Origin: Medakamo hakoo
Lineage: Eukaryota > Chlorophyta > Trebouxiophyceae > Coccomyxaceae
DNA: 64,000 bases
Assembly (NCBI GenBank): GCA_026636295.1
Contig: CP089462.1
Span: 310,001-374,000, forward strand
Direction of reading: 5' to 3'
The notes beneath the pieces were generated by a model. The model did no database searches. It worked only from the letters and a program-made list of their open reading frames with translations, and had not been told where the DNA came from. The position numbers and the translations under genes were made by a program. Positions 49,047 to 53,157 of the stretch are shown here, in pieces; within the stretch, counting starts at the first letter, position 1; every line of letters begins with the position of its first letter.

Positions 49047-49701
49047 TCACACCGACTTCAAAACGGCCGGCTTGACATAGGGTTTGGGCCCCCACGGCGC
49101 GGGCAAGTCGCCCAGCCGCGGGATCTCCCCCGCCGCGCGCGCGGCCTCCACCGCCGCGTCCGGGTCCGCCCCCTCCGCCGCCGCCGCCGCCCGCACAGCC
49201 GCGACGCCCGGGGGTGGCGGGGCCGGCGGCAGGGGCCGGGCCCCCAGGGCCCAGTGCGGGAACCGGTCCAGCCAGGCGAAGAGGGTCGTGGACTCACCCA
49301 GGCGGGACGTCGCTTCGTCCACCGACGGGTCGCCCGCGTAGGCCGCGCCCAGGGGCGCGTCGACGGGGCCGAAGTGCAGGGCGAGCATGGCCGGGGTGAT
49401 GGCGCCGCCGAGGGCGGCCTGGTTGGTTTGGTAAGAAGGGGGAAAGGGAGGCGCGGGCGTGAGGGAGGGCGTCCGTGTGCGTGCGTGCGTTTTTTCAGTT
49501 TCGTCCGCGTGGGGGTTGGTGCCCCCACAAACCAGCGGCCGCTCTCACCGCCACGGCGGCTTTGGCCTGGGCCACCGTGTCGCCCGGCCCCAGGTCCACA
49601 GAGCATTCAATGGCTTCCGCGCCCGGCGGCGGGTGCACCGCCTCGCAGAAGGACAGGCGGACGCGGACGGGGCGGGCAGCCGAGGGTGGTGAGGCGGACA
49701 T
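49047..49701 (-). CDS. Protein with N-terminal ubiquitin-like fold
   Basis: Two exons, 49549-49701 and 49047-49418, give 174 residues (donor GTGAGA, phase 0). I do not recognise the family. Residues 11 to about 100 follow a beta-grasp order: VRVRLSF (strand), ECSVDLGPGDTVAQAKAAVA (strand and helix), MLALHFG (strand), then SRLGESTTLFAWLD, which sits where ubiquitin has STLHLVL. No C-terminal Gly-Gly is present; instead a Pro/Ala-rich helical tail ends in PKPYVKPAVLKSV. It is therefore more likely a UBL-domain protein than a modifier. It lies directly downstream of the UBL-NEDD8 gene on the same strand, and both carry a D-L-G-x-G-x-T-V helix start. Confidence 0.65.
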
Positions 49702-49966: not shown

Positions 49967-50774
49967 TCACGCCCGCGCACCGCCACCGCGCAGGGCCAGG
50001 ACCAGGTGCAGCACGGACCCGCCCTCCACGCCGTACTCGCGGGCCGCCTTGTCGTCCGCCATCTGCTTGCCCGCAAAAATCAGGCGCTGCTGGACGGGCG
50101 GGATGCCCTCCTTTTCTTCCACGCGCTCCTTGATGCGGGCGATGGAGTCGGACGGCTCGATGTCGACTTCGATCTCCTTGCCCGTCAGCGTTTTCACTTT
50201 GACCATCAGGCCGCCGAGCAGGCGGCCGGACGTGGATGGCGGGGAGGAGGCGGTGGGAGCAGCAGCGCGCAGCGCGACCAGCGTGGCGCCGTCGCCCAAC
50301 CCCAGCGCCGCCAGGGGCAAGGACGGCTCGGCCGCCGGGACCAGGGTCGGGGAGGCGACGCCCGTCAGGGCGAGGGAGGCCGGGGCGGAGCCTGCCACGA
50401 GTTGGGGCGGGACAGGGCGTTTTTGGGGTGGGAGGGCGGGTCGAGGGGCGCGCGAGCATGCTTTTCCGTTTTTTTTCGCTGGGGGGCCGTCCCCACCCCG
50501 TCTTCACTCACCCATGGCCGCGCCCGCCGCGTTGAACAGGTCGGCCACCGTCGCGCCGTCGCCCAGGTCCAGGGCCGAGGCCGGCGCGGCGGGCGTGGAG
50601 AGGGACTGTGTGTTTGGACAAAGGGGAAGCGGGCGGACAGCGATGGGGTGTGAGCGGCGCAGAGAGGTTTGGAGCGAGGGGGCGCCGGCTTTTCACGGCG
50701 ACCTCGGCGCCCCAGCGGCCGGCGAGTAGAGCAGACTCCTGCTCGGCTCAACGTACGCGCAGGTTGAGGTGCAT
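49967..50774 (-). CDS. RUB1: UBL-NEDD8 (RUB1) fusion precursor
   Basis: Three exons, 50757-50774, 50512-50605 and 49967-50391, give 178 residues (donors GTACGT and GTGAGT, frame kept). Residues 99-174 are NEDD8/RUB1: [20 protein letters not shown], then [20 protein letters not shown], ending HLVLALRGG. The Ala-Leu-Arg-Gly-Gly end, with Ala at position 72, is NEDD8-specific; ubiquitin has Arg. A four-residue tail, GARA, would be removed. NEDD8 activates cullin-RING ligases. Residues 1-98 form a second, divergent ubiquitin fold ([35 protein letters not shown]) ending GRLLGG exactly at the NEDD8 boundary. It has no lysine. NEDD8 Met1 is replaced by Leu99, so the fusion reading seems required. 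Plant RUBs are known as ubiquitin fusions; this partner is not ubiquitin. Confidence 0.9.
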
Positions 50775-50968: not shown

Positions 50969-53157
50969 ATGTCGCCCAAAGCCGCCGACATCACCGCCGG
51001 CTCCGCCGCGGCGGCGACCGTCGTCCAGCTGAAAGCGTTCCTGGCTGAGCGCGGCCAGCCGACGGACGGACTGAAGGCGGACCTGGTGGCACGGGCGGAA
51101 GCCCTGCTGGCGGTGCGTTCTTTTACGGTCAAGGCCACAGTGCATGTGCTGACGGAGGGTGGGAGGGTGGTGCTGTGGCGGGCGAGCGCGCTCCGCCCCC
51201 GTTCCGACGCCTGCATCGGCGGTGCGGGCCGGCGGCGGTGGCGGTGCAGCGCTCTCCCCTCCCGTTTCCGTGCTCTGCCCTCCCTCCTCCCAACCCGGCT
51301 CAGGGGGCGGGACGGTCACGAGCACGAGGGCGTGACCCGCTCCGCCTGCGTGGCGGTGGAAGCGCGTGGAGCGCGCCCTGCCTCCCTCCCTCCTTTCCAC
51401 TGCGGACGGGCCGCCGCCGGCTGGCCTGGCTTCGCTTGCTTTGCCCGCGGCGCGCGCACCCACCCGCGTCCCGCCTGATCCCGGCGCTCACCCGGGCGGG
51501 TAGCCGACAGCTCAGGCCTGCCAGCTATGGCCTCTTTCCTCAGAAAAAGACACGGCCCGAACCTCACCACCCCCCTGCGTGTTGTCGCGCGCGCCCACGA
51601 AAAACACAGGACGAGCCCGCGGCCGACGCGGGCAACGCCCCGCTCGCGGCGGCCGAGGCCGCCGAACCCGGCGGCTCTCCCGCGCCCGCCGACGCGACCG
51701 ACGGCGACGCGCCCGCCGACGCCGACGACGCGGCCGAAGCCATGGACGGCTCCGGCGACGGCGGGCCCAACGGCGCCCCGGACGCGGCTGACCCGCTGGC
51801 GGCCGCGCCACGCAAGCGCCGCACGCCCACGACCGACCCGCTGCCGCCCGACGCGGCGTGGCTCCTCCTCTCCCGCATCGGCACGGACGCGACCGAGGAC
51901 GCGGTCGCCGACTTCCTGGAACCCTACTCGGGTCCCGTCCTGCGCGTCAATATCATCCGCCAGCACCCCAAGGCGCCGTTTGACGCGGGGACGGCGCAGG
52001 TCGCGGTCGCCGACCGGTCGGCCGCGGCCGCGGCCGTCGAAGCCCTCGCCGGCAAGGGCTACTGGCCGGGCGTCGCCACGCCCGTCGGGCTGAAAGTGAA
52101 GGAAGGCGTCGTCGTCAACCCAGCGTCCCGCGGCGGCGGCGGCGGCGGGTGGGGCGGCCGCCCCGGCTGGGGCGGCGGCCACGGCGGCGGCCACCACGGC
52201 CCGCCCGCGGGCGAGGTCGACCCGCGCGACCTGCCGCCCCCCGGCGTCGAGCCCTCCGTCTCCAAGGTGTTTGTGTCCAACCTGCCCGCGGGCACGGGCG
52301 AGGCGGAGCTGCGCCCCCTGCTGGAGGGGTGCGGCCCCGTCCACGAAATCCATTTCGCGCCGCCGCGCGGCCCGATGGACCAGTTCGTCGCGGCCTTTGT
52401 CTGGTTCACCACGCGGGCCGGGTGCGACGCCGCCCTTGCCCGCCTCAACGGGCTGGAGTGGGGCGACTCCCGCGTCCTGTGCCGGGTCGCCCGCCCGCGC
52501 ATCCGCCCCGCCCCGCCGCCCGCCTGGGGCGGGTGGGGCGGGTATGGCCACGCGTATGGCCACCACCACCACGCCGGCCACCACCACGCCCACCACCACC
52601 ACCACGGCCCGCCGTCGTACGGTGGCGGTCCGTACGGCGGGCCGCCGGGTGCGGGCGGGGAGGTCGCCCCCGGCGCGTACTACGGCGCGCCGGGCGCGGG
52701 CGCGCCGGCGCAGGCGGCCGCGCAGGCACCGGCCGGTGGCGGCGCCGACCCGTACGCGCCCTGGGGCGGCGGCAATGCCGCGTCCGCCGCCGGCCCGGCC
52801 GATCCGGCGTACGCCCAGTACTACGCGGCGGCCGGGTACGCCCCGCCCGCCGACGGGTCCGCCGCGCCCGGCGCCGGCGGCGCGCCGCCCGCGGGCGCCG
52901 GCGGCAAGGACGGCAAGGACGGCGCGCCGTCCGGCGGCGGCAAGCCGGAAGCGTGGGCCGGCGCCCAGGTGGCCGCCCGCGCCCAGCAGCAGCAGCAGCA
53001 GGCGGCCTGGGCGGGCGGCAACGCCCCCGGCCCCAACGGGTCGGCGCCGGCCGGCGGGGCCGGCACGATGCCCGCCCAGCCGGCCCAGCCCTGGGGCGGC
53101 GGCGGCACGTACGACCCGTACGCCAGCGCGTACGGCGGCGCGGGCGCGGCGCAGTGA
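50969..53157 (+). CDS. SAP-domain and double-RRM RNA-binding protein
   Basis: Two exons, 50969-51112 and 51610-53157, give 563 residues (donor GTGCGT). Exon 1 encodes a SAP motif (VVQLKAFLAERGQPTDGLKA), which typically binds scaffold-attachment DNA. An acidic Ala/Asp-rich linker follows. RRM1 (AWLLLSRIGTDATEDAVADF to LKVKEG) and RRM2 (VSKVFVSNLPAGTGEAELRP to VLCRVARPR) come next, separated by a Gly/His-rich linker. The C-terminal 200 residues are low complexity: a histidine cluster (GHHHHAGHHHAHHHHHG), Gly/Ala/Tyr repeats and a short glutamine run, which could favour condensate formation. A nuclear hnRNP-like role is inferred. A small additional exon inside the 497-bp intron cannot be excluded. 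Confidence 0.8.

Follow-up and report, generated by a model that had tools for sequence, protein, structure and literature searches.

Ubiquitin is among the most conserved proteins. The copies of its gene tend to stay alike through concerted evolution (PMC10457151), and green algae and plants inherit a fusion of ubiquitin with NEDD8, examples of which are described for Arabidopsis (RUB1/RUB2) and Chlamydomonas (CrRUB1) in passages of PMC3968751 and PMC3215745. The partner of NEDD8 in these fusions is a near-invariant ubiquitin, CrUb being 97% identical to the human protein. Divergent ubiquitin is found in Ub-S27a fusions, for which PMC10457151 cites Jones and Candido (1993) as well as Catic and Ploegh (2005). 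It has been described from Caenorhabditis, Plasmodium, Toxoplasma, Giardia and other protists, and recently also in Ub-L40 of some Plasmodium (PMC10457151). The ubiquitin half of these proteins escapes conservation and the C-terminal partner is conserved; in P. falciparum the fused ubiquitin agrees with the canonical protein at 24 of 76 residues and has kept its length (PMC10457151). A chaperone role has been proposed for fused ubiquitin (PMC8122580), and a settled ubiquitin-like fusion exists in FUBI-eS30 (FAU) of holozoans and others (PMC8354635, PMC10611586).

Medakamo hakoo is an ultrasmall trebouxiophyte alga with a genome of 15.8 Mbp and 73% G+C (PMC9871001); a word search of the main text of its genome paper (PMC9871001) gave neither 'ubiquitin' nor 'NEDD8'. 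The gene described here lies in a window (the whole stretch of 64,000 nucleotides that was analysed, 74.6% G+C) of the assembly of 15.64 Mb in 16 contigs. It resembles the Arabidopsis and Chlamydomonas fusions in the head-to-tail order with NEDD8 second, in the register of the junction, in the presence of a C-terminal tail after LALRGG and in the variable residue 1 of NEDD8. Its partner, unlike theirs, shares only 18 of 76 aligned residues with M. hakoo's own ubiquitin and has 22 extra residues. As in the divergent Ub-S27a systems, the ubiquitin half appears to have escaped conservation in front of a conserved C-terminal partner, which is a ribosomal protein there and NEDD8 here; the insertions set it apart from those systems, including the fused ubiquitin of P. 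falciparum. With FUBI it has in common the N-terminal place, the scarcity of lysine and the diglycine end, whereas its fusion to NEDD8 rather than to eS30, its insertions and its lack of a known relative distinguish it from FUBI. The eS30 gene lies elsewhere in the genome and is apparently unfused.

On the sequence evidence presented below, we consider the following reading probable: the sole NEDD8 gene found in M. hakoo has kept the ancestral ubiquitin-NEDD8 layout, and its ubiquitin half has decayed to a lysine-free leader that is cut off after RLLGG. What would be new is the decay in front of NEDD8, together with an eS31 gene in the same genome whose divergent ubiquitin also ends in RLLGG; divergent Ub-S27a is already known elsewhere. 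In the portions of the open-access literature (PMC) available to us, no account of a ubiquitin-NEDD8 gene with a decayed ubiquitin half was recognised, and the word 'NEDD8' does not occur in an article on ubiquitin fusions in algae (PMC6332867). The M. hakoo genome offers a natural test of the purpose of a fused ubiquitin, be it a source of ubiquitin, a leader or chaperone, or a mere cleavable cap. It also raises the question of the protease that would cut the tail once the ubiquitin body in front of it has gone. Since M. hakoo is in culture and RNA-seq and proteome data exist, the latter with more than 3000 unique peptides (PMC9871001), this question is directly testable.

Structure of the fusion gene

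The exons were rebuilt from the window (Table 1), and the joins, the fusion and the coordinates given in the preliminary description proved exact. The product has 178 residues, of which 98 without lysine end in GRLLGG and are followed by the 76 residues of NEDD8, ending in LALRGG, and the tail GARA. An identical protein (P0003, 178 aa, 178/178 residues) is present in a database of 5.8 billion proteins, where it stems from a contig of 976 nt and carries the source label 'lgn', which we take to denote the Logan assemblies of public reads. In the unspliced DNA an in-frame TGA stands right after MHLNLRVR, two codons into intron 1, and another 'lgn' entry, P0093, runs straight through intron-like sequence, so that these entries seem to be plain open frames. 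The P0003 sequence therefore implies a contig derived from spliced mRNA. Coding periodicity is seen in the N-terminal frame, where the G+C content at codon positions 1, 2 and 3 was 0.745, 0.673 and 0.959, and no position in the introns exceeded 0.775.

Table 1 Features of the NEDD8 fusion gene of Medakamo hakoo, in positions of the window
Feature	Position	Strand	Description
Fusion gene	49967..50774	-	ATG at 50774, stop ends at 49967; in-frame join of 3 exons, 537 nt including the stop
Exon 1	50757..50774	-	ATG and residues 1-6 (MHLNLR); boundary behind codon 6 in phase 0, matching exon 1 of the intact Ub-eL40 gene
Intron 1	50606..50756	-	151 nt, GT-AG, GTACGT...ACACAG; splicing implied by P0003
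Exon 2	50512..50605	-	Starts with residue 7; its last base is the first of the Gly38 codon
Intron 2	50392..50511	-	120 nt, GT-AG, GTGAGT...TGGCAG; interrupts a Gly codon in phase 1 and corresponds to the Gly35 intron in Ub-eL40 and in the eS31 fusion
Exon 3, whole	49967..50391	-	Exons rebuilt from the window
Exon 3, first part	50210..50391	-	Remainder of the putative decayed ubiquitin, up to residue 98
Ala/Ser/Pro/Thr stretch	50225..50266	-	14 residues (80-93) from the last ubiquitin-like strand to the tail; gap in the alignment
RLLGG	50210..50224	-	Residues 94-98, counterpart of RLRGG in ubiquitin; cleavage is presumed to follow the second Gly
NEDD8	49982..50209	-	76 residues (99-174), Leu1 then Met2, end LALRGG
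C-terminal tail GARA	49970..49981	-	Presumed removal after LALRGG, a pattern described in a passage of PMC3968751
Stop codon TGA	49967..49969	-	

The NEDD8 half and its first residue

Judged by its sequence, the NEDD8 half is ordinary. Residues 99-174 matched PF00240 (E = 7.1e-26) and align to residues 1-76 of PDB entry 1bt0, which is named RUB1. The domain is full-length, has alanine at position 72 and corresponds to a RUB1-type fusion, with a NEDD8 of 76 residues on the C-terminal side, ALRGG and a short tail. Position 1 was compared among plant and algal fusions, namely those of 199 fetched proteins that had the NEDD8 start motif and at least 70 residues before it (n = 93, including M. hakoo; P0094, which was too short, and P0041, which was missed by the motif, lie outside this set). 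Threonine occurred there in 42 fusions, methionine in 26, leucine and isoleucine in 12 each and valine in 1. The Haematococcus protein P0166 has the junction RLRGG followed by LMIKVK, in the same register as M. hakoo. Leu1 is thus no sign of novelty, but fits a frame inherited from the ancestral fusion. The dependence of NEDD8 on the fusion, proposed earlier from the missing start methionine, is supported by the search of the 16 contigs, in which no second NEDD8 gene was found; the weight that had been placed on Leu1 is not supported, since leucine recurs in 12 of the 93 fusions, M. hakoo included, and is followed by methionine.

The N-terminal partner

Sequence searches did not recognise the partner as ubiquitin. 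With residues 1-98, Pfam gave no family at the cut-off (best OTU1_UBXL, E = 0.16), the only hit among PDB sequences was a beta-lactamase variant (E = 0.44) and the ubiquitin/NEDD8 HMM scored −2.2 bits, a value that 211 of 5000 shuffles reached or surpassed. Residues 1-100 retrieved P0003 alone from the database of 5.8 billion proteins (4522 candidates scored, E up to 10), and no relatives were confirmed in the viral and prokaryotic collections. As to a second copy of the domain in the genome, a match on contig C9 (E = 0.002, with two stops inside) was dismissed by eye as composition. The partner contains 24% alanine, compared with 18.6% in the published M. hakoo codon table. It has none of the seven lysines of ubiquitin and no isoleucine at position 44; equivalents of Ile44 and Leu71 were absent from the alignments made. 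The lack of lysine pointed out in the preliminary description stands as an observation (0 of 98 residues) and weighs little as evidence, since genome composition yields it with P = 0.046 at the lysine frequency of 3.1% in the published codon table.

Signs of descent from ubiquitin were seen in the intron positions, in the junction and in global alignments. The intact Ub-eL40 gene on contig C6 (eL40 recognised by eye) has its introns after codon 6 in phase 0 and in the Gly35 codon in phase 1, and those of the NEDD8 fusion lie after codon 6 in phase 0 and in the Gly38 codon in phase 1. Gly38 precedes SAP, which lines up with IPP of ubiquitin. By a simple, rough count the joint chance of this coincidence is about 1.3e-4, and that of RLxGG standing directly before residue 1 of NEDD8 is about 7e-5 at M. 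hakoo residue frequencies. Global alignment of residues 1-98 gave z = 5.1-5.2 with M. hakoo's own ubiquitin and z = 5.7-5.8 with the domain fused to eS31, none of 5000 shuffles scoring as high in either case. Local alignment speaks against this, with only P = 0.013 for ubiquitin and P = 0.91 for the gene's own NEDD8, and the body of the partner, stripped of start and tail, aligned to ubiquitin with P = 0.01-0.02. Identity to the own ubiquitin was higher in the tail (4/5) than in the body (14/71; one-sided Fisher P = 0.010). Given the introns shared with Ub-eL40, the global alignment and RLxGG in register, the partner is best read as a decayed ubiquitin. Where a decayed ubiquitin or a distinct modifier had earlier been left as an either/or, the intron positions of Ub-eL40 and the sister case of the eS31 gene favour the former.

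Other ubiquitin genes in the genome

Canonical ubiquitin ending in RLRGG is encoded in M. hakoo by a polyubiquitin gene with three repeats (contig C2) and by Ub-eL40. The sole match for eS31 (S27a) in the genome lies at C7:458954-459967 on the minus strand. In a splice model predicted by hand, this gene starts with MQIFVKT and proceeds through two further exons to a domain of 74 residues that ends in ARLLGG. The domain alone matched PF00240 (E = 1.6e-12) and, over its whole length, ubiquitin in the PDB; the spliced model matched PF01599 (E = 4.2e-24) and PF00240 (E = 1.1e-11) and, as a prediction, counts as a divergent Ub-S27a. Compared with the own ubiquitin, 31 of 74 aligned residues are identical, one lysine is present, and positions 44, 48 and 63 hold serine, arginine and aspartate. 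Its tail has retained 4/5 residues, but the excess over its body was not significant (P = 0.086). Intron 2 interrupts the Gly35-equivalent codon in phase 1, and intron 1 is shifted downstream by one codon and one base relative to Ub-eL40.

The M. hakoo eS31 gene looks like a further case of divergent Ub-S27a, and its ubiquitin domain is plausible as an intermediate between ubiquitin and the NEDD8 partner. Both fusions look to have diverged in the same way, the eS31 fusion less far, and each ends in RLLGG. Four genes for ubiquitin fusions or polyubiquitin were found in M. hakoo, and two of them have escaped from ubiquitin conservation. An origin of the NEDD8 partner from FUBI-eS30 was considered and rejected: eS30 appears unfused, and the eS31-fused domain is nearer to ubiquitin (31 identities) than to FUBI (25).

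Divergent partners in other fusions

Among the 93 fusions inspected, 81 had at least 60 direct-register identities to ubiquitin. The other 12 comprise P0003 and P0106, in which no ubiquitin is recognisable next to NEDD8, P0075, which has NEDD8 in that place, and nine proteins (P0093, P0097, P0174, P0183, P0186, P0190, P0192, P0194 and P0199) in which ubiquitin shows insertions, displacement or substitutions. The Ulva protein P0106 (its label reads Ulva mutabilis) consists of canonical ubiquitin, a divergent ubiquitin-like domain and NEDD8. Its middle domain has 18 gapped identities to ubiquitin (z = 7.3), a single lysine and the end RLRGG. A divergent ubiquitin thus stands directly before NEDD8 as in M. 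hakoo, whereas the canonical ubiquitin in front and the retained RLRGG tail are differences. Cork oak P0041 is built of tandem units of divergent ubiquitin and NEDD8, the first partner having 39 identities to ubiquitin and 2 lysines; here too a divergent ubiquitin precedes NEDD8, and it differs from that of M. hakoo in having kept a ubiquitin-like length. The Ulva and cork oak proteins go part of the way, and loosening of the partner before NEDD8 therefore seems to have happened more than once. By sequence, the M. hakoo gene is the most extreme among the fusions inspected. The full-protein search scored 7983 candidates that shared most words, and the best 120 of 3923 matches were examined; from a second protein search these were the best 120 of 1406. 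Both were ranked by whole-protein score, which favours polyubiquitin, and further fusions whose partner has decayed may exist beyond these matches.

Processing and alternative readings

We propose that the ubiquitin half lost its constraint and drifted, in a genome of 73-75% G+C, to become an Ala/Pro/Ser-rich domain free of lysine. Ubiquitin would be supplied by the polyubiquitin and Ub-eL40 genes; because these can supply it, neither the NEDD8 gene nor the eS31 gene would any longer need its ubiquitin half to be ubiquitin. The fusion would be translated from its first ATG, and the decayed domain would still serve NEDD8 as an N-terminal leader. Cleavage after RLLGG may then fall to a deubiquitinase and cleavage after LALRGG to a NEDD8 protease, yielding a NEDD8 that begins with leucine. 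Having none of the seven lysines and no isoleucine at 44, the released domain would presumably not be used as ubiquitin. If the fusion still needs cutting, the persistence of the start, of the intron positions and of the R-L-x-G-G end is expected.

USP36 reads body and tail together, with ubiquitin as well as with FUBI, according to a passage of PMC10611586. For enzymes of this kind the stretch of 14 residues that parts RLLGG from the last ubiquitin-like strand is a real difficulty that argues against normal deubiquitinase recognition, and ordinary ubiquitin-style recognition is therefore doubtful. As this stretch should uncouple the recognition of body and tail, and as the equivalents of Ile44 and Leu71 are gone, the fusion might never be cut at RLLGG, so that NEDD8 would be used with an N-terminal extension of 98 residues and cullins would carry a two-domain tag. 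In laboratory work, NEDD8 with an N-terminal tag is commonly conjugated. We hold such a tag to be unlikely, since both this gene and the eS31 fusion preserve R-L-x-G-G exactly at the junction, which suggests continued cutting.

Somewhat less likely again is a distinct new modifier, a functional ubiquitin-like protein analogous to FUBI that would be released in equimolar amounts with NEDD8 and act by conjugation or as a free regulator. The FUBI tail follows the pattern R-x-L-G-G. The GRLLGG of the partner resembles the GRMLGG of FUBI, and global alignment of residues 1-98 to human FUBI gave z = 5.6, comparable to the value for ubiquitin. FUBI, too, ends in diglycine and contains a single internal lysine (PMC8354635), and the better-kept tail of the partner fits a modifier, whereas the alanine excess over the codon table and the separation of body from tail by the 14 residues do not, and no sign of conservation was seen in the database search, which returned P0003 only. 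Taken as a pair, these two outcomes, in which NEDD8 either comes free alongside a lysine-free ubiquitin-like protein having its own role or is never separated from it, placing a two-domain Ubl-NEDD8 tag on cullins, are rather unlikely, and the new modifier and the uncut tag are possible but unsupported. If one of them were true, the matching change from RLRGG to RLLGG in both the NEDD8 and the eS31 fusion would point to a processing step that the two have in common and that differs from the one used for true ubiquitin. It is very improbable that the upstream coding sequence is untranslated, with exons 1 and 2 as a 5' leader and NEDD8 starting at its own methionine: an in-frame ATG does exist at NEDD8 codon 2, at 50206-50204, and long open frames arise commonly by chance in so GC-rich a genome, yet the first ATG has A at −3, third codon positions reach 0.96 G+C in frame, 98 codons stay open across two joins, and the intron positions are those of a ubiquitin gene, with RLLGG in register.

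For the decayed-leader reading, parts of a neddylation system are present in M. hakoo, with 3 cullin neddylation domains, 1 DCN1-type domain and 12 ThiF matches, counted as pieces and not as genes. The UBA3 E2-binding domain gave no match in the genome, and none in the controls of the same search either. Candidate proteases were found as C12 at two places, C48 at three and 22 USP matches.

Neighbouring genes

Directly downstream of the NEDD8 gene and in the same direction, a gene was discerned at 49047-49701 of the window (minus strand; two exons by eye, 174 residues). Its 174 residues gave no match in Pfam, and its first exon is ubiquitin-like to the eye. On the other side, a divergently transcribed gene extends from position 50969 onward on the plus strand; by eye, its start resembles a SAP domain, with RNA-binding-like sequence further on. 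The NEDD8 gene and this divergent gene have a short upstream region in common.
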